Positions 1,226-24,874 of a stretch of 64,000 bases of DNA are shown piece by piece. A program made the position numbers and the translations under genes. The stretch spans positions 1 through 64,000 of the forward strand of contig NBAY01000071.1 of the NCBI GenBank assembly GCA_002794775.1, given 5' to 3'. The notes under the pieces were generated by a model, which was not told the DNA's origin, ran no database searches, and saw only the letters and a list, made by a program, of their open reading frames with translations. The number at the start of each line of letters is the position of its first letter. Positions within the stretch are counted from its first letter, which is position 1. Origin of the DNA: Porodaedalea pini. Lineage: Eukaryota > Basidiomycota > Agaricomycetes > Hymenochaetales > Hymenochaetaceae.

Positions 1226-1360
1226 GCAACTATACTTAATGAGCAGGTACTGCACAGAATTTACAGAGAAAATAGACATTTATTCTATTTTTTTTTGACA
1301 TTTTGGCTCAGACACAGCTCATTTCATGTGACATGCACATGTCGCAGGACTTATGAAAAT
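1226..1360 (-). repeat. 130-bp repeat R3, isolated copy
   Basis: Reverse-complement match to the R3 units at 11713-12219, sharing the block that ends in GCAGTACCTGCTCATTA. It abuts the R1 repeat. Confidence 0.7.
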
Positions 1361-1706
1361 GGCTGTACATAATGCAATTACAGCAGATTATGATTTGTGG
1401 AAGATTCTTCCTTCCTTTTTAGGACACTTCTCAGAATTCAAAGAAGTTCAAACTGAGATTGTTCAAGTTTTGCTAGGTAAGAGTTGCACCAGCATGCATT
1501 TGTAGCTGAACATCAATTACTTCTCTCCATGAAAGTATCCGATACTTTCCTGGTGACGCTGCTCATTGACATGGTTGCGGCTGTTCTGTAAGCATGACTG
1601 AACTCTATTTGAACCGACACAGAGTCACTGGCCATGCGGCGTTGGACTTGTTCAAAAACTTTCTCCCTCTTTCCTCCTGTATCTCATTGAGTGGCTGCTC
1701 CTTGCA
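1361..1706. other. No recognisable gene
   Basis: AT-rich DNA without a convincing reading frame. The last ~80 bases resemble the sequence just upstream of the intact kinase at 9146 and are probably the old leader of the kinase fragment that follows. Confidence 0.4.
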
Positions 1707-1914
1707 ATGTCAAGTATGTCTATAACCTTGTCCTTCATCAGTGCCTCAGACTCGACAACTAATGAGCTATTTTCCAGATGTCAGAACTATCCATAGCACC
1801 CCCAGAGGCAGTACCTTCAAGTTCATCTGCAAAACACAACTCCGAGTCCGACAACACTTTAGGATGCACATCAGGAAAAACCTCCCAGTGGAATATCATG
1901 GAATAATTTTAGAA
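1707..1914 (+). pseudogene. FunK1-type kinase, 5' fragment
   Basis: An ATGTCAA mini-exon (1707-1713) is followed by a GTATGT...CAG intron (1714-1777) and an exon that reads MSNVRTIHSTP, matching the start MSSVKTIHSTP of the kinase at 9146-11483 with the same exon structure. Only about 50 codons remain before a TAG at about 1912; the rest is replaced by GGAATT-type repeats. It is a truncated relic, useful because it supports the 7-nt first exon of the intact gene. Confidence 0.6.
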
Positions 1915-2110
1915 TAGAAAGAAAATTGTAGAATAGTTTGGAATGGCATTAAAATGGGTTTGGACCCTTGGAATTGCACAGAATTTGCACAGAATTGAGG
2001 AACTGTATTTGGAATTTGCTGGAATTGGCAAGGTGGTTTGTGGAATTGCACAGAATTGAGTAGAATAACAAAATTGTATTGGAATTTGCTGGAATTGGCA
2101 AGGTGAGTTA
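1895..2110. repeat. GGAATT-rich diverged tandem repeat
   Basis: Two ~70-bp units share the core GGAATTTGCTGGAATTGG (about 1975-2040 and 2045-2108) within a tract rich in TAGAATAG and GGAAT. No coding content seen. Confidence 0.6.
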
Positions 2111-2810
2111 TGGAATGAGCCAAAAAAAGTTATAGCAAATGTGGCATTTGAGCACCTCAGAAACTTGTAAAATCCATATCTCACTCAATTCTTAACAGAA
2201 TCAGTTCAAAAAAGTTGCTTAATTTATGTTTCAGTGGCTTCTAAATTTATGTGAGCTTAGTGGACAGAAGATGGTTAAGTAAGGCTGCAGTAGTGAGAAT
2301 AGGTGTTTTCCCAGCAAAACTCCTTCCTTGATTTTTCCTGAGCTCAATTTTGAAGCTAATGACATGAAACTTGCTGGAGAATGGTCTGTATACTATATTG
2401 TTGATTTTATGAGGGCTGAACTAGAGTGAATGTCTCTTGTTCTGCTTGACTGTTGTGCTGAAACTCAAATTTGCTTGACTCAGACAGTCTTCAAAAAATT
2501 CCCTGAATTGTTATAAGCCATCTAAAATTCAATATAAATTATACATACCATTCTCCAACAGGTTTCATGACATTAGCTTCACAATTGAGCTCAGGGAAAT
2601 TCAGGGAAGGAGTTTTACTAGAAAAACACATATTCTCACGTCTGCAGCCTCAATATTCCATATTCTGTCCTCTAAGCTCACATAAATTTTAGAAAACATT
2701 GAAACATAAATTAAGCAACTTTTTTGAAGAGTTTGTGTGAAGAATTGAGTGAGATATGCTATATTTTGTATTTGGAGGCACTTCAGGTGACAAAAACTGC
2801 TAAGTCCAAT
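2110..2810. repeat. Foldback repeat with ~300-bp arms
   Basis: The left arm (about 2110-2420) and right arm (about 2530-2800) are imperfect reverse complements. For example, the block beginning CATATCTCACTCAATTCTT on the left recurs inverted near 2735-2760, and the block around CATGAAAC...CTGGAGAATGGT recurs inverted near 2550-2570. About 110 bp separate the arms. It could be a MITE-like element or two copies of one repeat head to head. Confidence 0.65.
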
Positions 2811-2920
2811 CCTGGACGCGTCGTCCACAGAAGAGGTGTGGGAACTTGATCACGTGTATGTTGGTTTTGGCACAACACGCCACACATCGCCTTCACATCT
2901 GCTACCACTCTACTTATACT

Positions 2921-5190
2921 ATGTCTGGCGCTGACGTCTTACAGAATGTCTGAAAAAACCCTCGATTGCACCCACCACAACCATCACACACGAAGTGGTA
3001 GCCTCACCAGCTGCCTGGTGGGGCACACTCACTGCCGCAGGCAACATGCCATCTGAGTTCTGACTTTCAACTTATTAGAACACTCGTCTTCAAGCTGAAA
3101 ACCGTAAAGTCTGCCGCAACAGTTCCTGTTGTCATCATTGCACACATCACCGGACCTACTAAAAGAAAATTTTGTGTTGAACAAGGACTCCCATGAGCAC
3201 AGTCTCTTTATCTGTCCACACACATTGTTAAAGTTCGTCCACTTTCACCATTAGCACTTGACGCAAACACGTTCCCAATTGCCACAGTTCTTGGTGCATC
3301 GCTCACATCATTGACTTCCCTCTTCGCCGTACATGCGCTTGCCTCAGATTTTACTGTCTTCCTCCCTGGAACCACCATTACTTCATACTTGCGTGCTCTC
3401 AAAAACGAGGAGACCAAGCTTCACAAGTTAGATTTTGTGGAACTCAAGGCCAAGGCTTATTTTCAAAAAGGAGCTATGATGGAGAAAGGGCACGCATCTT
3501 TGCATGTCTTTTGCATAATACAACTCCTAATATGCTTTGCATGGAACAGCTACTCCCTCAGAGACGGCGCCTCCTTCGCTGAGCAAGCCTCCGGCACAAC
3601 ATTCGATCTCATCGGCGACGACAGCATTGCAGGTCGACGCTGCTGTAATACACAACTCAAATGGGGCTGGAAGAAAAATAAGTTCGTAAAAGGCAATGGT
3701 GAGGGTGCGGACAACATGAAAATTGTAAACACGGAAGGCGGAACACGCCTTCCCGCAACATACCGCAGCGGACGTTATGGTGAGTGGAAGGCGAAGATGC
3801 TGCGGCGCACACGTCTGCAATTGCCGCACAGGAAGACGCAACGAAAGAGGAAGGGATAACCAATGGCACGGTGAAGATTGCTATTGGCGTGAAGAAAGAG
3901 GTTGACTTTCCGGCTTGGTATACGAACGTGCGTTGGTTGTTCTGTAATCCCTCACTTTGTGCTGACAAGTATTATAGGCGCTGATCAAGGTCGATATGAC
4001 ATGCGTCTTCAGAGGGAGCTCCGAGCTTGAGGAGCTCATAGTAATCCGTCCGACTACAGAAACGGCCATGTATCCCTACTACACCAAATGTATCAAGAGC
4101 TGTCGTGATCTACCCCTCAAGCCCAACCAGTGGATCAGTGTCGCATGCTGCGAGTTCAAGAGCCCCCAGCCGTTCCTCCATATGCGCAAATTCCTATGGC
4201 AGGAAGGCTACACTGCGCATCTCACGAAGGAGGCCGACACTGAAGTACGGGAAATTCTCAATCTACATCGTTGCATGTACGAGGAGCCGCTTACTGTACC
4301 CGTCATCCCAGGCGTCAAGTCCGAGAAGGAGAAGTTTGCCAGTGGTCTTTACATGACGACCGTGGAAGGCTTCATTCCGACGACCAGCCGTGGCATCCAG
4401 GCTGCGATGTCGCATTGCCTTGACCAAGACTTCTCGCGGCCAGAGATGTTCAACATTGTGGCCGAAGACCTGGACAATCCACAGGGTACGGGTCCGAATG
4501 GTGGCAAATTATTGTGTGGTAGAAGTCGTGGGGCCTTAACACGTGCACGATCGGAATCATGATCGTGATTCGCGGCGACAACCAGGGTCTTGTTCTCCCA
4601 TCACATGTTGCTCGCATCCGAGCAATCGCTGTCCCCCTGTGGTATCACCATGCGCACTAATAAGCAGGAGCTCGCAAAGACGCTCAGGAAAGCCAGTATC
4701 TGCACGAAGGCGGACATACGGGACGGCTACACTCCTGGCTACAAGTTCAACAACTGGGATCAAAAGGCACGAAATTTCAATTATTCCTTATTTCTTGGTT
4801 TTCCTGTCGTCTTACAAATGGCTTTTTGTCCGGTGTGTGCCACTTCACCTTGAACTCTGTCCAATCAACATCCAGAAGAAGCAAACACTTCCTGTGCGAT
4901 GTGGTACGGGTGTGAAGGCACCAGTAGCACTTGCAGAACTGGAGACTGCAGTACCTGGACTTCCCGAGACTATCCAACAGGAGATGTTCGAGTGCACGAA
5001 GGCTTTGCACACTCTGTACATGTCTCACCTGCGTGTCATAACCAAATGAGACAATGTCGTGCCGACACTCGACAGCAAATATGTTGCAGTCCTTCCATGG
5101 TGCGAAGAGAAAGTGTGCGAAGACGACATCAAGGAGCACAGTGGACGCAAGTGTGTGTTTCCTCTCCTTCCTCCACTTTGCTAAAGCGAG
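2921..5190 (+). pseudogene. Cytosolic prolyl-tRNA synthetase pseudogene, copy 1
   Basis: Broken copy of a class II prolyl-tRNA synthetase of the eukaryotic cytosolic type, which charges tRNA-Pro with proline. Recognisable blocks in order: an N-terminal YbaK-like region (to about 3480); the catalytic entry VKIAIGVKKEVDFPAWYTNV (about 3870-3930); motif-2 region with RPTTETAMYPYY (about 4045-4085) and FLWQEG (about 4190); [20 protein letters not shown] (about 4320-4380); the anticodon-binding part with GYTPGYKFNNW (about 4730-4760); and a C-terminal block VAVLPWCEEKVCEDDIK (about 5085-5135). An intron corresponding to one in the second copy lies near 3928-3977, so this is a DNA-level copy. It lacks about 300 bp after that intron that the second copy keeps, has a frameshift near 4510, several in-frame stops, and no normal C-terminus. 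A short piece resembling 4920-4960 is duplicated near 5310-5350. Confidence 0.8.
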
Positions 5191-5419
5191 TGAACTGACC
5201 ATTATCCTATTCTACATAGCTCGGAACCATAAGACATACGTGCGCCATCCGCAGGTGCAAAGTCGCGTGCCATTCCCTTCAATCAGGTGCAGTACCCACC
5301 CATCGAGTCTGGTGCCAATAGCACTCACAGAACTGGAGACTGCTGTATCTATGATCAGCATTGTGGCTATTATTCATGGTGATCTTCCTGGTGTGCTCCA
5401 TGACCTGTTTGTTAAGTAG

Positions 5420-5732
5420 GTTGAGTAACTATGGACATGTATGGAATGAGTACGGAATAGCATAATTTATATTGAAGAAAAATTGGAATACACGAATAAA
5501 CAATGAAGAAAAGTTGGAATGCATGAATAAATGATGAAGAACTACTGGAATGCACGAATAAATGATGTGAATGCTAAGAGAATACTAGAGAAAGTCTAGA
5601 ATACAGGTGAAAGATGATAGAATACCACAGAATATGGAATACCCTTATAGAATCTGCCAAGTATGGAATCAGCCGGAATCACCGGCTGATTCCGGCAATT
5701 CCGCTATTTTCCGCCGGGGAGGTTTTTCCTGA
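5420..5732. repeat. AT-rich diverged tandem repeat
   Basis: Roughly 32-bp units built on TTGGAATGCACGAATAAATGATGAAGAA recur about three times between 5477 and 5575, followed by more GGAATA-type sequence and a short GCCGGAATCACCGGC palindrome near 5670-5690. No gene. Confidence 0.6.
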
Positions 5733-7881
5733 TGCAGTGTCATACTGTTCAAGAATGACAGGATACTCTTCATCGAAATGGCCGAGTTATCATTTAAGAT
5801 CAATGACGCGGAGCTGGCTACATTGGCCGCCTGGAATATCAAGAACAACGCGGATTTTCTAGACCAGGAGGTTGGTCTAGGTGGACTCTTTGCTACAAAG
5901 GAAGAGGATGAACCGAATATATACGGCCCACCTATAAAGATGGGAAACCACACAATCCGGCAATTCACTGGGACGTCCGGTCCTCAGGCGAACAAGATAA
6001 AGCTACTCCTTTGTGGGGACAAGGTCCTCGTGTCTCACTTTGCGGGCGGCAAGCCAGACATACTCCTAGTCTCGCAACACGATTACGAATGTGCTTCCTT
6101 TGATGAAAAAGGTAGATGTGTTTATCAGGGTGACCCAGCAGGCGTCGAAATTACACACGGTGATCTTTTTTGGCCGCATGTTTTGCTTCGCTCTGAATTC
6201 AAGGGGAAAAGATACAAAGAGGAAAAGGCTCGGGGAAGAGGCCGTTCGACAGCCTTTCCGAAGAGTGCAACATGAAGAAAAATTGGCCGACCAAGGCGTC
6301 TAGATCATCTACTTCGCGTAGAGGTGCTCGGCCGACTGGAGTTTCATCGTTATTGCGCACAGGTAGACTAAATGACACTGGTACTACGAGAAAAAAGGTC
6401 AACTCGATATCACACACATCCTGTGCGATGCCGAAAGACGTGCCGCTGCGTGGTGATCCAGAAAGTCAACTACACGGCTTTGTGGCGGGAATGTCGAGTG
6501 CAAATGGCGATCATATCTGGCTTTTCCTCAAGGATACGAAGGCATACCTGCGCTACTATCACCAATCATGCGTCATGATGTTCGACGGAATTGACTCCAT
6601 CGAGTGCTTTGCTCCCCTGGCGATCCTTTTCATGCTCTGCGTAATGGGAGGAGATGGTCAAGCAGGCCTCAGCCTCAAACCTGTTCCAGAATGGGTCAAT
6701 CCGTTTTATACGAAGTCTGATAGGATGACGGCGATGCACTGTGAGCAAGTTCTGTGCCATGAATACGGGGCATCGTTTCGGCTAGTCGAAAATGCTGACG
6801 TTCACCACGAAGGGAAATTCCATACCTATTACTCACTTCTGGTTCACGGAACAGATATTCACGATGTCGAAATGCTGGGGAACACCACCAATGATCTGAT
6901 GTTTGTCGTAAGGTCTTCCTGCAAAATGGCGACTCGCGGTCAGGCGCGTGGTTATATTGCGGAGGCAAGAGACATCGAATCAGTATATGTCATTCAGGAC
7001 TTAGGACAAGCTGCTGTTATCAGCGACTGTCTTCCAGACGAGTTGCGGGATAAGTGCTCTCAAAAGTGTCAAGAATACGAGAAGAAGGAAATCAGGTTCT
7101 TCCCGAGAGGAAACACAACTCAATCTCCGAGATAAAAGACCCTGAAATTTTCTGGAAGGTTTTCTGCAATGTTTGCGTAGTGAGTGTACAGTGAATTGCT
7201 TTTTTTTTTTAATAAACTGACTTCGGTTACTTAGGTGCGCATATGCTTTACTCGAAATGTGGCATCCTTCACCGTGATATCAGTTTTCATAATCTACGGT
7301 TTCACATCGACGAGAATGGAGAATATGTCGGCATTCTTCTGGAGTCTGATTTCGTGTCCACAGGGCCAAGCCAGCAATCTAACCTTGTGCACTGTGGCTC
7401 GGTTCCTTTCATGGCTCGCGAGCTCCTCGATAATTTGAAACTGCGCGCGCAGTGCTTCCGTCATGAGCTCGAATCTTTCTTCTATGTTCTTGTCTGGCAC
7501 ACCCTTAGTCGCAGAGACAGGACATCTCCTATTGAAGACCTCCTGCACATATGGAGAGAGGGATCTTGGGAAAAGGTTATGAAAGCTAAGCGTATCTTCA
7601 TCCCGGACGACTGGATTGATATATTCCGCGATTCCGATCCCGACAGTACTAGTGATTTCCTGAATGTTCGATGCGCATCGCTGTGCCATTACTTTTTTAT
7701 GGTAGAGCAAAATCTAATTGATAGGCACTTATCACAGTGGAGTAACCCATTTGACGTGAAACCGAAGGAGAGGCTTGCTAGGGGCGACACGGACTACACG
7801 ACGATTGTGTTCGGGTGCTGGTTGAAGCGTGTTGGAGAGCTGGAGGATTGTGATGTTTGTGATAAGGACTGTTGTGTATGA
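5733..7881 (+). pseudogene. FunK1-type protein kinase, frameshifted
   Basis: Homologous throughout to the intact kinase at 9146-11483, but the 5' end is missing. Readable blocks: 5754-6275; 6272-7135; an intron with GTGAGT...TTAG (about 7180-7234); and a kinase C-lobe exon to 7881. The catalytic loop reads ILHRDISFHN and the hallmark HELESFFYVLVW is present, so family assignment is firm. Alignment with the intact copy implies single-base losses near 6225 (before a segment reading RPFDSLSE), near 7100 (before PERK) and near 7165. The metal-binding DFD of the sister gene has become ESD (residues LLESDFVS). A non-functional decayed paralogue is the simplest reading; one or two shifts could be sequencing errors, all three is unlikely. 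Confidence 0.8.
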
Positions 7882-9145
7882 TGATAGACTAGTGTGATAT
7901 CCACCTACGTACATAGTGCGGTGTGCTTTTAACAAGAAATGGGTCTGTAGATGCTTGCAATTGCTTCCAGTTATCCATGTGGATCGAAACGCGCAAGATT
8001 TCGAATCCACCGAGGAGGATCCTGGTCATTCAACGTTTGAAAAACACATGGATACTGTCAAGGATACAAAGTCCGTGGATCGTTTCCTATGGCACTCTTG
8101 TGTTGTGGCTTAGCTTGTTGAGAGGAGACGGGGAAAAAGGTTTGCCGGCGTACGATGTCCGTAGCGTAGTACGCTAGTAATCGCGAGAGCCAACATGCGC
8201 TGAATACTTACCAGCTTGTTACAGAAGGCGATGGAGCTCTTAGGATTGGGATGCGTGCTTCCGGGAGGAGGCTTGTGCTTTGCATCGCACGGAAGTACTC
8301 TGTGGAATAGAGGAAACGATCGTAAGTACCCTCATGCCAATGTACCATGGCATGCGACCATGGAAAGCGGGGTAGAACTCGTATACAGATATTAGACGCC
8401 ACGGCCGTAGCAAAAAGAGAGAGAAAAGGCTCAGTAAACCAATGTAGTTGCTTATTAGCTTATTCAGTTTTCCACATATCGTGTAATGTCGAATCTGCTC
8501 ACCCATAGTTCATTTTCATTACTCACACATCTAGTTTTTGTCCATGTTGGCTTTCGGCCAGATAAAGAGCTTAAGACATATTTTTCTTTGGTGTTCAACG
8601 CTTTGACAATGTATTTGTCAACTAGGATGGAGCCCAGAGCATCAGTACGTTTTGGATCATGCTCTCGTCAGGTTTTGCGCTCTTGCTGTGGACCCCAGTG
8701 ATACTAGCAGAGCTTCCAGACGACGTGTTTATGATCTGGGGAGAGTTTTCTTCCTGTATCTCTAGAAAGTGCGCCAGCTCGGATCGTGCCATCGTTGTAG
8801 CTCAACTGTAGCTTGAGGTTGAGACAGACAGTCAGAGTGATTCGTGTGAGAAGCTTTACTTCCCTTTTCGGATCGCATCCACGATCGACAATCAAAAAGT
8901 TGATGAAGCCCCTTGAAAAGTCTCCGTTCACGATTCGGGATTGCTACATTGCCTAGCAAACGCCAGTGGATACGTAGCCGTCGAACATCGCGTCTGTCGT
9001 CAAGAAAGATCCAACTGTCTTGCGACTCGTGGTTCAGGTGGTTTGTCGAGCCACGCATGGCCTAAAGTGGCAGCACTTGACTGATTCTTCCAACCGCAAC
9101 CTCTCACTCTCTACCCCCATCTCATCGGACCACTAGTGTCTCATT
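7882..9145. other. Intergenic, no gene identified
   Basis: About 1.26 kb between two kinase copies. It has moderate GC and a few reading frames of 60-98 codons on both strands (for example 8762-9058 minus), but none with a recognisable domain. Occasional GTAAGT sites (for example near 8320) suggest remnants of an unidentified intron-containing gene. Confidence 0.4.
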
Positions 9146-11483
9146 ATGTCAAGTATGCATTTTATCTATCGTTCTTCATTTGGATAGCATCCTCTGTAAC
9201 TAATGCTGGGTTTTCAAGGCGTCAAAACGATCCATAGTACACCTTCGAAGGCGGTTGCCTCGTCGGCGACGTATACGAGGCTTAGCATAGACAATGACTT
9301 GAAGCGCGACGTTGACCTGCTCAAGAACGAGGGTATAAGCTTCGAAGAAATGATCAAAACCTTGTTCGAGGTCAAAGACGCAGAGTACGATGCGATGAAG
9401 GCGACGTTCGCCAGTTGGGATATCGACAAAAGCGAGGAGTTTCTGGCCGGAAAGCTCGAACTTGAGAAAGTACTCACCACGAGGAATAAATACGAGCGAC
9501 ATATGTATTCCCCGTTTGTAAAAATGGGAAACGACGTCGTCCAGCACGCTATCGAAGCGCACGGTCCGCAGGCAAACAAGATCAAGCTACTTTTTTGCGG
9601 GGACAAGGTTCTGAAGTCTCATTTCGCGGAACGTAAACCAGATGTACTTCTGGTTCCGCAATACGACGGTGAATATCCTGCTCCCCCCGATGTAAAAGGG
9701 AAGGGCGCTTGTGAGAGCGAGTCACCAGGCGTCGAGATCACACACGATAACCTTTTCTGGTGGCATGTTCTGCTTTGCCTCGAGTTCAAGAAAGAGAGAT
9801 CAAAGGAGAGCAAGAGCGGACAGAAGAGGCCTCTGGATAGCCTCACCGAGCAGGACGATGTGGAGAAACCCGGCCCAGCCAAGGCGTCTAGATCGTCGGC
9901 TTCGCGTAGTGAGCGTCCGACTGGAGCAGGAGCATCAACGTCATCGCGCAGAGGTAGCAAACGAGGAAGGCCAATAAGGAGCACTGGCTCTGGACGAGAG
10001 AGGAAGGTCACTTCGAGCTCTCGCACGACCTCCTCCGTGTCGAGGGAGCCTAGAGACCCTGAGACTCAGCTTGCTAGCTATGCAGCAGAGATGCTGAGTG
10101 CGAACGGCGATCGGATCTATGCCCTCGGGCTTCTCGTCAAGGATGGAAAAGTATACTTGCGCTATTATCACCAGTCGTGTGTCGTCATGTCGGATGGAAT
10201 TGACTTCCTTGAGGATTTTACTCCTCTCGCGATCCTTTTCATGCTCTACGTCAAGAGAGAAGTTGGTCGAGTAGGCTTTGGGCTCAATCCTGTTACGGGC
10301 TACACCAATCCATTTGACACGAAGTCCGAGAAGACCATGACGATGCACTGCGAGCTAGTTCCTATTCGCGAAAGTGGAACTCCGTTCCAGCTAGTCGAAA
10401 ATGCGAGCATTCATCGCAAGGGGCGCGTCCATACCAATTACTCGCTCTTGGGTCGCGGAACAGCCGTTCACGACATTGAAGCGCCGGGGAATACCAGCAA
10501 AGATCTAAAACTTGTCGTAAAGTCTTCCTGGCAAGTGAGCGACCGTGCACAGGAGCATATTTTCATTGCGGAAGCGAGGAAGATCGATTCAAAACATGTC
10601 GTTCAAGTGTTTGGACAAGCTGTCATTGCCGATAACTCTCCTTCTGATGAGCTGCGGGAGAAATGCTCTCGGAAGTCGCAAGAGTATGAGAAGAAGGAAA
10701 TCCGTCTTCTCCTCGAGAGGAAATACGGTTCAATCTTTGAGATTGAAGACCCGGTACTCTTCTGGAAGGTCTTTATGCAATGCCTACGTTGTGAGTGCAT
10801 TGACAAAAAATTGCTATTTGTAAATTGGCTAACTTCAAATAGGCGCGCATAGGCTTTATTCGAAAGGTCGTATTCTTCATCGTGATATTAGTATCAATAA
10901 TCTCGGGTTTTACATCGACGAGGATGGAGAATATATTGGTGTCCTCCTGGATTTCGATCTCGCGTCCATGGGTCCTACCCAGCAATCTACTCGCGTGCGC
11001 TCTGGCACGGCTCCTTTCATGGCTCGCGACGTACTTGATACTTCGAAACCGTACACGCACCGCTTCCACCATGAGCTTGAGTCTTTTCTCTATGTCCTCA
11101 TCTGGCATGCTCTTGGCTACAGACAGAAAAAGTATCCCGAACAAGACATTCTGCGCGGATGGAGAAAAGGATCTTGGGATAGCATTAAGGATGCTAAGGA
11201 ATTTTTCATCTTGAGCAAGTGGTTTGAAATATTCCCTGATCCTGATCCTGATGATGATTTCCTGCGTATTCGATGCGGATCGTTGTGCTCTTACTTCTAC
11301 ATGGTAGGGATATATGAGAAAGACGAGCACTTATCACAGAGGAAGAGCCGATTTGGCGTGAAACCGAACGAGAGGCTTGCTAGGTCAGGTACGGACTACT
11401 CGGCGATCACATGGAAGCGCTGGTTGGAGCACGCCGGAGAGCCGGAGGACAGTGACCTTTGCAACAAAGACTGTTGTGTATGA
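9146..11483 (+). CDS. FunK1-family fungal protein kinase, intact
   Basis: Predicted gene of three exons: 9146-9152, 9219-10790 and 10843-11483, with introns of 66 bp (GTATGC...AAG) and 52 bp (GTGAGT...TAG). Splicing gives one frame of about 739 residues ending in TGA. The N-terminal half is a regulatory/N-lobe region; a Ser/Arg/Lys/Pro linker runs from about 9810 to 10060; the C-lobe carries the catalytic loop LHRDISINNLG, a DFD metal-binding motif (LLDFDLAS), GTAPFMARDVL and HELESFLYVLIW. These are hallmarks of the FunK1 (Pkinase_fungal) family, expanded in Agaricomycetes; their substrates are largely unknown. The start is chosen because the 7-nt exon and its intron also occur in the 5' fragment at 1707. 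An unspliced start at 9203 is the alternative but would begin inside the predicted intron. Confidence 0.85.
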
Positions 11484-11712
11484 TCATAACAGAATATGAT
11501 ATTCACCTACGGTGCTATATAATGTGTACAAGCGTTAGATCTGATTTTTTACATCGCTTCCAATTATCCATGTAGACTGTTTTCACATCGGATTAGCCAC
11601 ACTTAATTTTTTTTAGCTTCGAGAACTTGCTATGAACAGGAACTCAACAAGAGCTCAATAAATCAGCCCAGTCACCATAGCATATGGGATGTCCGGGCTT
11701 TCTTTCTTTACA

Positions 11713-13412: not shown

Positions 13413-14680
13413 TGTCAGGCACGGTGCCTGTTTGAGATTAAATTATGCAACTATGATATTAGGATTCTTAATCACATTCACTACACTAAAGCAAGCACAG
13501 TAATTCTAGACGTCCAAGTGGTGAAGGGAATCCCTATGCATATGATTCAGAGACTCAGATATAACAAAACAAAATACAAAGAAAGAAAGAAAGACACACT
13601 CAGAAGGTGAACCCAAGTCAGAAGGCGAACCCAAGTCAGGAGGTGACACGTGGACTTCTATAGAAACTTCCACCATAATTCTGATCATGATGTCAAAATG
13701 TGTGTGTAATAAGTAATCTGATGACTCATACCTTATACATAATGGAACCTCATTAGATGGCTAGAGTGGTCTAGACCATAACTCAGCCAAGCGGTCATGC
13801 AGCATAGAGCGAAGAGCATTAATGTTTAGAAGATAGAGTGATGGCATGGCAGATTGCTGGTAATTAGTGAATATGAAGATGGAAACCAGTATTTAACAAG
13901 TACAATTTTCTCAATATTGTCAGTCCATGCAGATGCATGCAAAGACGGAGTTGTTTTCAGGAACTCACCGAGTGATGGAAGCACAGTCATGAATTCTCCA
14001 TCATTAGTGCTGATCCATAGAAGAAAAGATCAGCCAAGCCATTTAGCAGACAAATGGAAGCACAAAGAAGGTTATGGAAGAATTAGAAGGTCAGGGAATG
14101 TTATAGAACCCCGATGGAGTTGCATGGAACAGTATAGAATATTGATGGAATATGTTAGAATGTCAAAGAAGGTTCTAGAACTTAGTTACCATAGTTACCA
14201 AATCTATAAATATACCACTGTAGTCTATATAAGGAGGGCCTAGCCCCCCAACAATATAACGATTTTACTTGTGATTTATTGTGTGATCAGTCTGACTTGT
14301 TTAGTAAGAGCTTAAGCGCAAGGCTTAAGCAACTAGCAAATTTACTGATCTTATTGTGTGTTAAGACTGACTCATATAGTAAAGCTTAAGTAAGGGGCTT
14401 AAGCAACTAACGCAGTAGTTTAGCATTCATTACATATTACATTGACGTGTACTTAGCTTGAGCACCTGGCTTGAGCACTTAGTGAAATTATCTGAGAAAT
14501 CTGAGCTCTAGAAGATCTAGAGCTAACTGCTATTTGACACCTTAGAAACTAAATAGCATACATCTCAGCCTCTTGACAACCTGAGAAGACGTTTGACTCA
14601 AGACAAGTCCAACTGACTCAGTGGAAATTGTGATTGTGAATATTACACCATTTTATTTCATTACACTTTCCAGCACGACA
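13413..14680 (+). repeat. Solo LTR, family X, copy 1 (1268 bp)
   Basis: Starts TGTCAGGCACGG and ends CCAGCACGACA (TGTC...GACA ends). It contains a TATA-like TATATAAGG (about 14225-14233) followed by a leader-like segment with GCTTAAG-type direct repeats (about 14308-14410) and a short palindrome (14502-14522). A second, almost identical copy exists at 17708-17739 plus 23519-24756. No internal coding region or partner LTR is adjacent, so it is read as a solo LTR. Flanks CACAT and ACGTG are not a clean target duplication. The 129-codon frame at 13854-14243 lies inside the LTR and is identical in both copies; I do not call it a gene. Confidence 0.65.
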
Positions 14681-14739
14681 ACGTGAGCATGTGTTAGCCA
14701 AACCATCACCATGCAAACACAAAAACCAATGCTCTACTT

Positions 14740-17707: not shown

Positions 17708-17739
17708 TGTCAGGCGTGGTGCCTGTTTGAGATTAAATT
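17708..17739 (+). repeat. LTR-X copy 2, first 32 bp
   Basis: Matches the first 32 bp of the solo LTR at 13413 (TGTCAGGCGTGGTGCC...GATTAAATT). It is then interrupted by the terminal-inverted-repeat transposon and continues at 23519. Confidence 0.8.
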
Positions 17740-18242
17740 CATCAGGAAAATGGCAAACACTATACACTGTTATATGCTACTATATAGCATTTATAGTAGT
17801 CCATAGTTGTTTAGTAGTTAATGGTAACCCCCCCTCTATATAGGACTGTATAGTACCATAGTGCCATAGCTGTATGTTACATAGCACAGAATAGGCCATA
17901 GAGGGATATCACATAGTGTGGATAGACCATAGTGGTATAGTATTATAGCACTGAATAGCACATAGAGTCAAATAGGTCATAATTTCTTAGAGACATATAG
18001 TGATATAAAGGAGTCTATAGCCATGTGACTAGGCAGTGTCATACTTACTAGGGCATCTCAGGACCTCACACTTTTATTCAGATAGCGGGCAGATTGCAAA
18101 AATCATATATTATAATATGCAAATACATTGGATCTACTATTCTACTGGTGTAGCCATGCACTTCTGACTGCCGGCTTATCTCCCTGACTTCCTCATCAGA
18201 CTTGCTCCATGACGATGCACATTAGATACACACATGTGTCTG

Positions 18243-20085
18243 CTATGTTCCTTGATGTCCGACTTCACCCGTTTCCTCTTCGCACCGCGGAAGGACTGCG
18301 ACGCATTTGCTGTGAAGTGTCAGCACGATGCCGTCCCATTTGGTCACGACGCGCAGGCGAGACATGTACAGTGCTTTCGCGCACTCGAACATCTCCGGTT
18401 GGATAGTCTCGAGAAGTGCAGGTATGGCAATCTCCAGTTCTGCGACTCCTATTAGCGCTTGAACGCCTGGATCACGTCGCACAGAAAGTGTTTGCTTCTT
18501 CTGGATATCGAACGGACCGAGTTTGAGGCGAAGTAGCACATTCTGGACAAAGAGTCATTTGTAAGATTACAGGCAAACCGAGGAGCAAGAAATAATTATA
18601 TGTTTACACCTTCTGTTCCCAGTCGTTGAACTTGTAGCCAGGAGTGTAGCCGTCCCGTACATCCACCTTCGCGTGGATACCGGCTCTCCTGAGCGTCTTC
18701 GCAAGCTCCTCACAGCGGTCGTATAATTCCTGCTTATTAGTACGCATGGTGATACCGCAGGGGACAATGATTACTTGGATGCTCGCGACGCGTGGTGGGA
18801 GAACAAGACCTGGTTGTCGTCGTGGATCATGACCATAACTCCGATCGTGCGCGTGCTTAGACCCCATAAGTTCTGCCACGCAAATGATTTGCCACCGTTC
18901 GAACCCGTACCTTGCGGATCGTCCGGGTCTTCGACCATAATGTTAGACATCTCTGGCCGCGAAAAGTTTTGGCCAAGACAATGCGACGTCGCAGCTTGGA
19001 TGCCACGACCGGTCGTCGGAATGAAGCCTTCCACGGTCGTCGTGTACAGACCACCGGCGAACTTCTCCTTCTCGGACTTGATGCCGGGGATGATGGGTAT
19101 GGCGAGCAGCTCCTCGTACACGCGACGATTTAAGCCAAGAATTTCCCGTACTTCAGTGTCGGCCTCTTTCTTCGTGAGATGCGCAGTGTGGCCTTCCTGC
19201 CATAGGAATTAGCGCGTACGGAGGAACGGCTGGGGGCTCTTGGATTCCCAGCGCACAACGCTGTCCCACTGGTTGAGCTTGAGGGGGTAGATCACGATAG
19301 CTCTTGATCTATTCGGCGTAGTAGAGATACATGGCCGTTTCTGCGGTCGGACGGATTGTTGAGCTCCTCAAGCTCGGAGCTCCCTCTGAAGGCGCATGTC
19401 AACATCGAGTTGGAAATCAAAAAAATTGAACACGTACGTCCTGGTCATCCATGCCACTTCCGGACAAAAGCCCTCAATGTGGTCCTTTTCGCGCTCGAGC
19501 ACCTTGAGATGCGAATGTTGGGAAGTCAGAATTCTGAACCATTCTGTGGCGAGTAAGAACCTGAGATGCAGATGCTTGTTTTTTTAATAAATACCTTGGA
19601 CTGCTTTCCAGATGCTGTATGACCAGGGATTAGGAATGTAGCATCCACAAACGCTGTAGTAGTCTAACATACCGGCCTTGATCAGCGCCTATGATACTTG
19701 TCAGCACTAAGTGAGGGATTACAGAACAATCAGCATACGTTCGCATACCAAACCGGAAAGTCGACCTTTTTCTTCACGCCAATAGCTATCTTCACGGCGC
19801 CCTCAAATCTCCCTTCCTCTTTCGTTGCCTTTTCCTGGATGGCAATTGCAGACGTGGACGCAGCAGGCGCCGCAGCATCGGTCTTGAGTGTCGCGAAGTC
19901 TACTTCGTGAAGCTTGATCTCTCCGGTTCCGAGAATGCGCAAGTATGAAGCAATGTCGGTTCCAGAGAGGAAGACAGTAGAATTGGAGGCGAGCGCACGT
20001 ACGGCGAAGGGGGAAGTCGATGATGCGAGCGATGCACCAAGGACCGTGACAACCTTCGGGAACGTGTTGGCATCGGTTTCGACGA
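18243..20085 (-). pseudogene. Prolyl-tRNA synthetase pseudogene, copy 2 (captured)
   Basis: Second copy of the cytosolic prolyl-tRNA synthetase gene, antisense to copy 1. Blocks from high to low coordinates: DANTFPKVVTVLGASLASST (about 20050), VKIAIGVKKKVDFPVWYANV (about 19790-19740), GCYI.PWSYSIWK (about 19640), the motif region [20 protein letters not shown] (about 19110-19050), [34 protein letters not shown] (about 18850), GYTPGYKFNDWEQK (about 18640-18610), and LGPFDIQKKQTLSVRRD (about 18520). At least two GT-AG introns remain (near 19685-19740 and 19560-19600). Frameshifts (for example near 18800) and stops inactivate it. It keeps ~300 bp that copy 1 has lost, so neither derives simply from the other. 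The C-terminus is missing. Confidence 0.85.
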
Positions 20086-20347
20086 GGAAGCGACATTCGC
20101 AGTGAACGGGTTGGTAGCAGCGCTGATACGGTGCACACTCAAACAGGTCGGCAACGAGTTTGGCATCAGCCTCCTTCGCCTCAATAGCAGACATGACAAG
20201 CTTCTCGACGAGAAGATGTCGATGCTCCGAGGGAAGTGCAGAGAAATACTCTTCTGCATCGTTGAGATCGCGGATAGCGAAGAATTCCTTGCGGTCCTGG
20301 TCAGTCTTCTTTTCCGCTTGCTCCTTCGACATCGACAATTTTCCCAT
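19730..20347 (-). other. Chimeric eIF4G-ProRS open frame
   Basis: A single open frame of 205 codons begins in the eIF4G MA3 domain (EFFAIRDLNDAEEYF) and continues without a stop into the YbaK-like N-terminal region and catalytic entry of prolyl-tRNA synthetase (VKIAIGVKKKVDFPVWYA). The join lies near 20080-20130. It shows how capture of adjacent fragments can create a fusion frame. Whether it is transcribed is unknown. Confidence 0.75.
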
Positions 20348-22023
20348 AGTCCTTCTCGAGAATCTCGCCCTCCTCGCCCTCCTCGCTGTTGTGAGTCTCA
20401 GCGGGACTATTCTCCGACTTCTCCTGCATGGGCTTCGAACGCGGAAGCAGGTTGAGTCTGGGACGCTGAGCAGGTTGGACAGGTTCCACAGATGGGTTGT
20501 GGGTCAAGTCGACGCTCATTGTACGGCTTGACGAGCGACTTGGACGAGACGAGGATGCAGTAGGAGCCTCATTAGCGGCCTCAGCGGCCTGCAGCATCTG
20601 GAACATGTTCGTGTTCGAACTTGTCCTTGAAAGGCTCGCACTGTCGTGCTTGCTGTCTCCCTTCTTCGTGAGACGCTGGTCGGTCCGAAGTTCATGGTGC
20701 CACTGCCCTTCTGAATCTTGCCAGAGTTCGTCAGATCACCCGCCTCGTTTGCAGGCCTCGAAGGGCCAGAGGAGACAGCCCATCCGTCGGGACCGACTTG
20801 AGCATATCCGCCACGATCATGGCCACGGCGTGAACCACCGCGAGACATGGCCGACCGCGCTAAGTTATGTTGCTCCTGTTGCGCCTTCTCTTTCGCGGCC
20901 TGTATATTGGTAAGCACAAGTGAAATCGAGTAACAAAGCAAGAGCGCTTACCGTCTCATGAATCTGAGCGATTGTCGACGGAGCAGCGACCAAGTTGCGG
21001 GTAGTCCATTTCCTTTCCCGCAATTCAATCACATCCTGTCCAAGAAAGTCAGCTCAACGAAAGGCTAGGAAACAGAGGGTACGCACTTGTAACATGAACG
21101 GCATACAAGACGACACGTTGCTGCTCTTCGCAAGCTCCTTCATCCGATTGAAATAGACGTCCATGTGTCCGCGAGCCTTAGAGGTATCGAGCGCCTGACC
21201 AACAGTTGTCAGGAGTTTACATAAACTTTCGATTTCTTCCTCCTCGGGATTGTCGACGTTGCTGAGCAGCTTCTTGATACATGATACGTTCCGTGAGCAT
21301 CTGAAGCTTGAAGAGCTCGTCGATGAACTTGACGAGTCCGAGACCTTGACGCTTGGCCTTCTGAGCAGCGTAGTATTCGTCCGAGTACAGCGCACTCTCG
21401 CCAGCCCCCTTGTTTTCTTCCTTTTCGTTGGCATCTTTAACAGCCTGATCCTCTGTCGCCTTCACGAGAGCCGCTGACGCCATCGACTCCTTCTGCGTCC
21501 AGCCGCGCTCGAAGTCTTCCTGACAGCGATTCAGAAGGTACTTACGGAAAAGCAGACCACCTGTAATCGGCTTGCCCTCAGCATTGCGGATACCATCATC
21601 CTGCACGTTCAGACTGATCTACTCCATCATCTTACGGCACAAGCGAGCATATATCTCACTCCAGGCCGCCTCATCCGTCGTCTTCTCGAACACAAGCCGA
21701 ACGACCTGAATGAATGTACGCCCATCCTTCTCACTCTCACTCTTGTTTGCCCACACAATGATCTGGTTTGAGATGGACTCAAACTTCTCCATAGTGAGCT
21801 TGTTGAGTAGCAAACGGACCTTCTTGTTCACAATCTCGGGTGAACCTGGGTCATTCGAGGCCCCACGCCTGGACGTGCTGCCCGCGACCCAGCGGTTCGC
21901 AGACTGCTCGAGCGGCGCGACGTGTTCAAAGGAGGAAGCAGCATTCGCGTTGAACTGATTGGCAGAAGCGCTGATACGATTCGACTCGTCGCGTGTTGAG
22001 CCGCCACGTTTCCTACGCGTACC
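20120..22023 (-). pseudogene. eIF4G pseudogene (captured)
   Basis: Most of the C-terminal half of translation initiation factor eIF4G, the scaffold that binds eIF4A. It starts after an intron acceptor (CAG at 22024-22026) with GTRRKRGG, then APLEQSANRWVAGSTSRR (about 21930-21880), the MIF4G domain (RLLLNKLTMEKFESISNQII, about 21830-21760, to NVDNPEEEEIESLCKLLTTV, about 21255-21195), a linker with RLNLLPRSKP, and an MA3 domain start (EFFAIRDLNDAEEYFSALPS, about 20290-20230) cut short near 20130. Introns at 21036-21086 and 20900-20951 are intact GT-AG. Damage: CAG to TAG nonsense after KMME (about 21619), and frameshifts near 21280 and 20620. In the last part the reading frame runs on into prolyl-tRNA synthetase sequence. 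Confidence 0.85.
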
Positions 22024-22108
22024 CTGGAAAATAGAAAGCATCAAGTAGGAGGGAAGCAGAAATTGGCGTACTCGAAGACAGCGCCAACAAGCCCTTTCCT
22101 TTCCTCTT

Positions 22109-22830
22109 CTAGCTTTCCGTCTTCTTGTGGCATTGCTCGTCTGTAAACTTGCGCCCCGTCTTCATCTTGCCGTGGTTATGCTTGCGCGTCATGACCTCGC
22201 GCCACACGCGTGTCTCGACGCGCGAGGGATCTTGCACAGCGTCGCTGGTCAGCACTTTCGCGAGATTTGCGAGGCGGGCTTTAGACGCGTCAGACGGAGC
22301 AAGACCCATGCGGATGCGGTTGCGCTTGTCCTGCAGTTCTGCCTGCCGGCGCTGCTTGCACATCTTCTGCCCCCTCTTCGTAGCATGAGCGGCTTAATCT
22401 TCGTCTTGTCCTTGTCGCCCGGAGCAGGGATCTTTATGGGGTGTTGCACGTAGATGTTATGGGAGGGTCGAGAGTATGGATATTGAGCACAGATATTGAG
22501 TGCGGATATTCCTGCATTCAAATCATCGTAGGAGTCGTTGGGTAAAAAGGCCATGCTTCACTACTCTGCATTCGGAGCTTCACGCTACATGTAGAGTCAG
22601 AACACATTAATCGGCCATATACAATGACTCACCCTGATGATCTTTTCCGTGGTCTCAAACTCTCCATTCAGACCCGTCTTCCGAGCGCCTTCGGCGATAC
22701 ACTGCTTGAGAGTTTCCAGCTGAGCATCTTGACGGTATTGGTTTGCGATCTGGACATACTTCCCCTTCTGGTTGAAGCGGAACGATCGTAAAGTATTCTC
22801 CTTCGAACGCACCAGGGTGCTGTTGTTGAT
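22109..22830 (-). pseudogene. PRP3 splicing-factor pseudogene (captured)
   Basis: Fragment of the U4/U6 snRNP protein Prp3. Blocks in order: RSFRFNQKGKYVQIANQYRQ (about 22780-22720), ARKTGLNGEFETTEKIIR, an intron (GTGAGT...GTAG, about 22587-22634), then a segment where two tandem Trp codons expected in AEWWD have become TAG TGA (about 22565), AFLPNDSYDDL, YVQHPIKIPAPGDKDKTKIK (about 22450-22400), QRRQAELQDKRNRIRMGLAP, LAKVLTSDAVQDPSRVETRV (about 22265-22200), and a stop after HKKTES. A frameshift lies near 22370. The N-terminus and the C-terminal domain are absent. It lies upstream of, and in the same orientation as, the eIF4G fragment, an arrangement expected from capture rather than from a normal locus. 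Confidence 0.8.
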
Positions 22831-22854
22831 GGGTGGTGTGAAGTTGGCAGTGGC

Positions 22855-22964
22855 ACGCGTCAAAACCAACACACATGTGATCGAGTTCCCACGCTCTTGC
22901 TCGTGGATGGGTGCCCATCCACGAGCAAGAGCGTGGGAAATTGGACTTGTGAATTTTGACGCGT
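22855..22964. repeat. 110-bp hairpin at edge of captured block
   Basis: Terminal ACGCGTCAAAA and TTTTGACGCGT pair, and the centre is a perfect 24-bp stem (22888-22911 with 22914-22937) around a 2-nt loop. It sits immediately outside the PRP3 fragment. It may mark the junction formed when the fragments were acquired. Confidence 0.85.
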
Positions 22965-23500
22965 CTCACTGACTCTCAGATCCCTTACTCACCACCTTTT
23001 ACTTTTACCTGCTTAATGAACCCTTCATCCCAAAGTATTTCTTCAACAACCAGTGTGTCAAGATTGGTGGGTAAAAGAGTAGAGACAATTTAAATTTATA
23101 CAAATAAATGATGCAATGCAGACTTAGGAGCAGCCAAAAACAGTCTCCCAACCATAGTTATTATTTTATGCAGATATTTTTCTGATTGATGAATACAGAT
23201 TCTCAATGCTAGTCATCATTCAGTTGTGACCTCAGGTTGGTTTTCATCCATTGTGCTATTGAGATTCTCTACTCAGCATCATTGTAGATATATACTATAT
23301 AATACTATTACAGCTATATCTGACTATGGATACTATAAACTATATGCTATATAACTTTATGTAACTATGAGAGCCTATGAACTATATAAAACTATAAGCA
23401 CTATATAGCACTCTATCACTATGTACTATGCAACTATACATGACTATAACATGCTATAAACTGCTATGTGACTATATACCACTATGGCTAACTATGAGTT
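22965..23500. other. AT-rich subterminal region of the TIR element
   Basis: No gene seen. From about 23290 it is dominated by CTATA/CTATG repeats mirroring those near the other end (17760-18020). Confidence 0.55.
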
Positions 23501-23518
23501 TTTGCCATTTTCCTGATG

Positions 23519-24756
23519 TTATGCAACTATGATATTAGGATTCTTAATCATGTTCACTACACTAAAGCAAGCACAGTAATTCTAGATGTCCGAGCGGTGA
23601 AGGGAATCCCTATGCATATGATTCAGAGACTCAGATATAACAAAACAAAATACAAAGAAAGAAAGAAAGACACACTCAGAAGGTGAACCCAAGTCAGAAG
23701 GCGAACCCAAGTCAGGAGGTGACACGTGGACTTCTATAGAAACTTCCACCATAATTCTGATCATGATGTCAAAATGTGTGTGTAATAAGTAATCTGATGA
23801 CTCATACCTTATACATAATGGAACCTCATTAGATGGCTAGAGTGGTCTAGACCATAACTCAGCCAAGCGGTCATGCAGCATAGAGCGAAGAGCATTAATG
23901 TTTAGAAGATAGAGTGATGGCATGGCAGATTGCTGGTAATTAGTGAATATGAAGATGGAAACCAGTATTTAACAAGTACAATTTTCTCAATATTGTCAGT
24001 CCATGCAGATGCATGCAAAGACGGAGTTGTTTTCAGGAACTCACCGAGTGATGGAAGCACAGTCATGAATTCTCCATCATTAGTGCTGATCCATAGAAGA
24101 AAAGATCAGCCAAGCCATTTAGCAGACAAATGGAAGCACAAAGAAGGTTATGGAAGAATTAGAAGGTCAGGGAATGTTATAGAACCCCGATGGAGTTGCA
24201 TGGAACAGTATAGAATATTGATGGAATATGTTAGAATGTCAAAGAAGGTTCTAGAACTTAGTTACCATAGTTACCAAATCTATAAATATACCACTGTAGT
24301 CTATATAAGGAGGGCCTAGCCCCCCAACAATATAACGATTTTACTTGTGATTTATTGTGTGATCAGTCTGACTTGTTTAGTAAGAGCTTAAGCGCAAGGC
24401 TTAAGCAACTAGCAAATTTACTGATCTTATTGTGTGTTAAGACTGACTCATATAGTAAAGCTTAAGTAAGGGGCTTAAGCAACTAACGCAGTAGTTTAGC
24501 ATTCATTACATATTACATTGACGTGTACTTAGCTTGAGCACCTGGCTTGAGCACTTAGTGAAATTATCTGAGAAATCTGAGCTCTAGAAGATCTAGAGCT
24601 AACTGCTATTTGACACCTTAGAAACTAAATAGCATACATCTCAGCCTCTCGACAACCTGAGAAGACGTTTGACTCAAGACAAGTCCAACTGACTCAGTGG
24701 AAATTGTGATTGTGAATATTACACCATTTTATTTCATTACACTTTCCAGCACAACA
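23519..24756 (+). repeat. LTR-X copy 2, main part
   Basis: Continues the LTR started at 17708; the two parts add up to the same 1268 bp as copy 1 once the duplicated TT is removed. It differs from copy 1 at only a handful of positions, several being CpG transitions. Ends CAGCACAACA; the element A LTR resumes directly after. Confidence 0.8.
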
Positions 24757-24874
24757 CCGTGACAACCTAGGTGAGACCAGCGCATCCCGAGTCTCTGCTC
24801 AAGTATAGCACATCCCAGATGACAGTCAGCTGAGGCCTGCCCAGTTCGAGCGCCACCTGAACTCCTGCCTAACA
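24757..24874 (+). repeat. Element A 5' LTR, second part
   Basis: Completes the split LTR, ending CTGCCTAACA. The primer-binding site follows one base later. Confidence 0.8.

Follow-up and report, generated by a model that had tools for sequence, protein, structure and literature searches.

The first 64,000 nucleotides of contig NBAY01000071.1 of the fungus Porodaedalea pini (GenBank assembly GCA_002794775.1), hereafter the window, contain a transposable element loaded with fragments of three housekeeping genes, PRP3, eIF4G and ProRS (prolyl-tRNA synthetase). With a probability of about 0.9, we consider this element to be a cut-and-paste transposon of the CACTA/EnSpm-like PlavakaB group, non-autonomous and of Pack type. 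As in Pack-TYPE elements, pieces of host coding genes that come from different loci lie between its terminal inverted repeats (TIRs), no recognisable transposase is found inside, and the cargo moves along with the ends. A sequence-only reading had described perfect 18-bp TIRs, a TT duplication and fragments of the three genes in one orientation with introns retained, and had taken the whole for a non-autonomous gene-capturing element of a basidiomycete. This description held: the closest intact genes lie elsewhere in the genome, and the host agrees with the reconstruction of Plavaka families from Agaricomycotina (PMC12730594).

The element and its cargo

The 18-mer CATCAGGAAAATGGCAAA occurs at just two places in the window, facing each other, even when up to 3 mismatches are tolerated, compared with a chance expectation of 0.08 per window (mean of 100 shuffles). 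The TIR arms reach 22 nt at 95% identity and are flanked by TT on both sides (Table 1). Furthermore, the window contains a paralogous unfilled site in which the left flank is joined straight to the right flank across a single TT, and the segment that begins there (13443-14686) is 99.4% identical to the right flank of the element (23519-24762). The unfilled site with its single TT, together with the TT on each side of the filled one, shows that the element inserted and that the repeats do not frame it by chance. Both subterminal regions are rich in CTATA/TATAG words, which have a mean density of 0.45 per 300 bp across the window.

The sequence-only reading had described the CATCAGG ends and 2-bp duplication correctly and had matched them to no superfamily; a nameable one does fit. 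PlavakaB elements have CATCA..TGATG termini and duplicate 2 or 3 bp of target, while classical CACTA/EnSpm elements have 5'-CAC..GTG-3' ends and a 3-bp target site duplication (TSD) (PMC12730594). The element begins and ends with 5'-CATCA..TGATG-3' and is flanked by a 2-bp TSD; judged by these termini, its superfamily is predicted to be PlavakaB, which is CACTA/EnSpm-like. A classical CACTA/EnSpm element was rejected on the same features, its ends being CATCAGG and its TSD 2 bp long. Helitrons have neither TIR nor TSD, and a Helitron was rejected since both are present here. None of the 64 Plavaka matches in the genome lies on the contig of the window, and a Pfam search of nine open frames of the element returned the PRP3 and MIF4G families only.

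The cargo lies entirely on the minus strand, in the order PRP3, eIF4G and ProRS, as judged from Pfam, PDB and DNA identity. The assembly comprises 53.3 Mb in 201 contigs (labelled C1 onward; the window is bases 1-64000 of C71), and the closest intact genes were found on three separate contigs, C113 for PRP3, C33 for eIF4G and C57 for ProRS, each intact in the parts that were read. The PRP3 fragment matched Pfam PF08572 (E 2.4e-21 and 5.7e-10), and a genome search with PRP3 gave 18 matches, with a single strong locus on C113 (E 5e-76) and the others inside copies of the same family of elements, which we call family A. Two introns of 48 bp are common to the C113 gene and the element, and the exons are 88.9% and 86.2% identical. 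The compared stretches of intact eIF4G and ProRS are intron-free, so retention is visible for PRP3 alone. By our own reading, PRP3 and eIF4G join immediately past the splice acceptor of PRP3 intron 2, where the two sides have a 2-bp GT in common.

The eIF4G fragment matched MIF4G (PF02854) in three pieces (best E 1.3e-12) and is 92.8% identical over 754 bp to an intact open frame at C33:46161. The two ProRS pieces submitted to Pfam matched no family; their identification rests on PDB matches, the best of which (1.4e-43) is an unnamed protein followed by prolyl-tRNA ligases from 7.1e-43, and on 93.2% DNA identity between 18748-19217 and the C57 gene over 471 bp. The reading frames of the cargo are broken by stops and frameshifts, the eIF4G copy in the window having one of each. 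An open reading frame across the eIF4G-ProRS join (19733-20503) matched nothing in Pfam or PDB, so that this join rests on DNA similarity and on a reading of the residues. A copy on C78, which belongs to a second family with different ends (family B, see below), is 92% identical to the element over a single 2501-bp block covering the join, which is therefore common to element families with different ends. PRP3 cargo was seen in family A only.

Two further observations concern eIF4G and the region upstream of the cargo. C33 holds two eIF4G-like copies (C33:46161 and C33:77036) that face in opposite directions at a distance of 31 kb and are 93% identical in protein, each with an open frame of more than 460 codons, and just the N-terminal part of the eIF4G piece occurs in long stop-free frames (377-432 aa) on C48, C7, C106, C143, C42, C77 and C38. 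The region of a perfect hairpin at 22886-22939 is also matched in short family-A copies and in the family-B copy that was compared; it could be what is left of a promoter or regulatory sequence.

Table 1. Coordinates of the element, its cargo and related features in the window.
Feature	Position	Strand	Remark
Putative Pack-type PlavakaB element, whole (family A)	17740..23518	.	5779 bp
Left TIR, CATCAGGAAAATGGCAAA	17740..17757	+	18 bp
Right TIR	23501..23518	-	perfect complement of left TIR
Left TSD, TT	17738..17739	+	
Right TSD, TT	23519..23520	+	
Left subterminal region, CTATA/TATAG-rich	17740..18039	+	12 words in 300 bp
Right subterminal region, CTATA/TATAG-rich	23219..23518	-	13 words in 300 bp
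Perfect 26-bp hairpin, 2-nt loop	22886..22939	.	upstream of cargo
PRP3 fragment	22021..22805	-	83% identity to intact C113:57237-58026, one 785-bp block
PRP3 intron 1, retained	22585..22632	-	77.1% identity to the intron of the intact gene
PRP3 intron 2, retained	22024..22071	-	85.4% identity; splice acceptor adjoins PRP3-eIF4G join
eIF4G fragment	20130..22023	-	MIF4G domain 21084-21825; lower boundary approximate
ProRS fragments	18228..20085	-	upper boundary approximate
Empty target site, one TT (13443-13444)	13423..13472	+	left flank joined straight to right flank
Second element, putative PlavakaB type (family B)	1869..5734	.	ends CATCAGGAAAAACCTCCC, TSD CA, ProRS fragment
ProRS fragment of second element	3260..5156	+	4184-4649 is 87.7% identical to intact C57

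Copies and transposase-bearing relatives in the genome

The sequence-only reading had proposed a search for other copies with the 18-bp ends, for intact donors and for a transposase-bearing relative, and had named as fatal the finding of the three genes as neighbours or of ends unique to this element. The genome contains 29 exact copies of the end CATCAGGAAAATGGCAAA and 0 of the reversed control, the closest intact genes are those given above, and Plavaka-domain elements were found behind similar and sister ends. Eighteen of the 29 exact ends could be paired with a second end, including four partners with 1-2 mismatches. Among 13 independent convergent pairs whose flanks were read, 12 carry matching 2-bp flanks (TT, TT, TA, CT, TT, AT, CA, TA, CA, CA, TA, CA). 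These 12 insertions comprise nine independent ones out of ten listed pairs, those on C31 and C138, and the second element of the window; a C24 copy, both flanks of which are the same as on C71, was not recounted. The duplication count rests on those 13 pairs, with the other family-B convergent pairs outside it.

A copy on C135 is 98.9% identical to the element over its whole length, yet occupies an unrelated site, where it is flanked by a TSD of its own, indicating that the loaded element moved as a unit. Shorter A-type elements on C19, C61 and C69 have nothing similar to the part of the window element that holds PRP3 and eIF4G, and the one open frame examined in the C19 element encodes a fungal protein kinase (PF17667, E 5.5e-41). 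The end pairs on C31 (25.7 kb) and C138 (18.9 kb) were rejected as autonomous elements after a Pfam search of nine of their open frames, which returned Ty3/gypsy-type domains for eight and a tRNA-synthetase anticodon-binding domain for one. One open frame on C55 matched gag in Pfam. A pogo/Fot1-like transposase, recognised by eye at 1296-3251 of a stretch of C21 (L031, C21:519343-528342), is nested in another A-family copy.

Plavaka domains were found near two other types of ends. The end CATCAGGAAAAAGG, near-identical to the A end, occurs four times in the genome, and at three of these sites (C3, C17 and C87) a partial Plavaka domain (PF18759), oriented the same way, is located 3.6-4.2 kb inward of the end; the fourth site (C113) is too near a contig end to judge. 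The sister end CATCAGGAAAAACCTCCC, which defines family B, has 226 sites in the genome at up to 1 mismatch compared with 0 in the control. For family B, the 100 of the 226 sites that were listed first were compared with the strongest Plavaka matches (16 of the 64, each of at least 138 bits), and eight of these 16 lie at recurring distances from a listed end: exactly 1709 bp on C36, C26, C7 and C3, 1627-1628 bp on C6 and C40, and 9237-9250 bp on C52 and C45. This association of Plavaka domains with similar and sister ends would agree with mobilisation of the element by a Plavaka transposase. A transposase of the PlavakaB type would be expected to bear C(2)C and H(3-4)H motifs.

The cargo is abundant. 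The intact eIF4G protein piece gave 136 genome matches and the family-B piece 128, of which 54 were counted as separate element loci after family-A copies, the C33 loci, C24:314520, N-terminal-only loci and shorter or second pieces had been left out. The first 100 listed family-B ends form 29 convergent neighbouring pairs less than 30 kb apart; 18 of these pairs enclose one of those 54 eIF4G loci, 12 a match to the ProRS C-terminal domain, 4 a Plavaka match and 4 none of these.

The second element of the window has family-B ends, and a family-B pair with the same spacing occurs at C24:47691-51556. It is part of a longer stretch (C24:30498-51556) that seems to repeat window positions 1869-23518, with the A element in the same flanks and the family-B pair, and that may be either a segmental duplication or a second haplotype left uncollapsed. 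Elsewhere in the window, 5978-7909 and 9562-11511 are duplicated open stretches, 69.7% identical, that by eye look like fungal protein kinases, and the right half (25400-63140) is filled by several open frames that look Ty3/gypsy-like on inspection of the open-frame list by eye.

Origin and decay of the cargo

Comparison with other copies revealed a mosaic. Against the full family-A copies on C21, C45 (C45a) and C25, the identity of the element is 90-98% in the nine 300-bp blocks that cover 22618 to 19919, and 73-90% in the six that follow (19918 to 18119). A ProRS tree was built from 21 sequences, namely the intact gene plus 20 matches out of 28, the other eight being short, repeated or from the same insertion; in it, the window element groups with C135 and C31, apart from C21, C25 and C45a. 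Furthermore, stretches on C69, C129 and C23 each carry two ProRS pieces of different clades, one of each with family B. Fusion of elements, or template switching between them, would be expected to produce such mosaics with swapped ProRS modules.

Differences from the element in the PRP3 region are rich in changes from CpG to TpG or CpA (C21, 12/27; C45a, 28/42; C45b, 38/46; C25, 37/57; C79, 50/69), with few in the reverse direction (6, 4, 0, 1 and 2, respectively); C135 has four differences, one in each CpG direction. This bias suggests that the other copies decayed through cytosine methylation and deamination.

We ran a simple simulation of capture followed by drift, in which the two branches were given the same time, the cargo drifted and the intact gene underwent mostly synonymous change, and obtained nonsynonymous shares of 0.54-0.61. 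The shares for PRP3 (0.57) and ProRS (0.50) in the window element fit the drift simulation. The Pack-type reading would then run as follows. A Plavaka transposase from autonomous relatives elsewhere probably recognises the CATCAGG ends and the subterminal repeats and, acting in trans, would insert the element with a 2-bp duplication. The eIF4G and ProRS pieces would have been joined first, in one element, and PRP3 gained later, in family A; fusion, re-mobilisation or template switching of elements may have carried cargo from one of the two end-families, A and B, to the other, and the cargo would now be drifting, eroded at methylated CpG.

Several observations weigh against this account. Eleven of the 29 exact ends have no partner in the stretches read, and a convergent pair on C23 (38 kb) has no duplication; it joins two left ends and was rejected as one simple element. 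Among the 16 strongest Plavaka matches, three (C40:286566 and two on C25) have no listed family-B end nearby and five lie on contigs past the listed ends (C77 twice, C81, C93 and C118). No transposase-domain element with the exact A 18-mer was found in the genome, the closest ends differing at 2 of 18 positions. Finally, the nonsynonymous share of the eIF4G cargo is 0.34, and 0 of 300 simulations gave a value as low in each of three settings; for the family-B copy on C78 the share is 0.40, reached by 0, 1 and 2 of 300 simulations. This deficit implies a history other than plain capture-then-drift from the present-day gene. Past selection, capture from a lost allele and an over-simple model are all candidate explanations, and the intact C33 gene may not be the direct parent of the eIF4G piece.

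An eIF4G piece captured in another lineage, or from a since-lost allele or paralogue, could have arrived with the transposon. Synonymous divergence of 0.21 against nonsynonymous divergence of 0.027 between the window cargo and the intact C33 gene, below the drift prediction, speaks for such a source, which we nevertheless regard as unlikely: a protein search with the family-B eIF4G piece returned only eIF4G-type proteins, from species of Agaricomycetes, with a best identity of 76% (among the best 120 of 1148 matches) against 88-91% for the intact gene. The second C33 copy (C33:77036) does not explain the deficit, since its identity to the family-B copy (83%) is lower than that of the intact gene (88%). 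The same shortage of nonsynonymous change, together with 18 of 28 full-length family-B eIF4G matches being stop-free over 335-351 codons, would also agree with an eIF4G-ProRS chimera that is or recently was a working transposon gene under selection, for instance by biasing translation or blunting silencing. However, the other ten matches contain stops, additional family-B copies are broken into pieces in differing frames, the ratio of nonsynonymous to synonymous rates (dN/dS) ranges from 0.28 to 1.63 among the eIF4G copies compared, the window copy is itself disrupted, and PRP3 and ProRS agree with drift, making a functional chimera improbable. By a rough estimate, the 18 open frames seemed not to require selection on the present family-B copies. 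We give equally little credence to the fuller scenario in which the chimera was a transposon-encoded gene that purifying selection maintained during its spread through the PlavakaB families, PRP3 being recruited afterwards; if this were true, a parasite would have carried a derivative of the host translation machinery.

Two other explanations fare far worse. An origin as processed copies, reverse-transcribed and then inserted into a TIR element, is contradicted for PRP3 by its two introns and is highly implausible. That PRP3, eIF4G and ProRS are ordinary neighbours framed by incidental repeats is practically untenable, given the three contigs of the closest intact genes, the recurrence of the exact ends in the genome and an empty site that lacks the whole block.

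Comparison with known systems

Gene capture by TIR elements has been studied mostly in plants, and the fungal cases that we found each concern one gene carried by a hAT element of an ascomycete. Most of the series is present here within a single fungal genome, from PlavakaB elements with a transposase domain through dozens of gene-bearing derivatives to the closest intact genes. The genome also offers an empty target site, as well as copies whose modules are duplicated or swapped, so that the order and mechanism of capture could be reconstructed. A transposon family that multiplies fragments of essential genes to tens of copies represents one route of gene copying and shuffling. For annotators, it means that counts of MIF4G, ProRS and PRP3 in such genomes are inflated by transposons.

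PlavakaB elements of Agaricomycotina (CMCT clade; PMC12730594) have the same CATCA..TGATG termini and 2-bp TSD, and resemble those described here in the Plavaka domain within longer relatives bearing such ends. They differ in cargo, a TET/JBP dioxygenase gene there and housekeeping fragments in elements without transposase here, and a word search of the available text of that paper returned no gene-fragment cargo. The literature consulted, consisting of titles and the beginnings of abstracts with subscription papers mostly outside it, contained no Plavaka element carrying gene fragments and no eIF4G-ProRS chimera. Plant Pack-CACTA and other Pack-TYPE elements (PMC8903248) have the same non-autonomous TIR form with coding fragments from several loci, and also show fused and repeated modules; they were described in plants and have other TIRs, whereas the present element is fungal and of the putative PlavakaB type. 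Histone H3 hAT elements of Pyrenophora tritici-repentis (PMC3538342) and Pseudocercospora (PMC6710886) are likewise fungal DNA transposons that multiply a housekeeping gene to many copies; in Pseudocercospora, these are inactivated by repeat-induced point mutation. Both are hAT elements of ascomycetes carrying one gene, in contrast with the three joined genes and CpG-type decay observed here. Helitrons of Pleurotus ostreatus (PMC4289320) are likewise mushroom transposons with captured genes and differ in being rolling-circle elements. The combination of Pack-type gene capture with PlavakaB did not turn up in this literature and is apparently new, while fungal histone H3 hAT elements and plant Pack-CACTA were already known.

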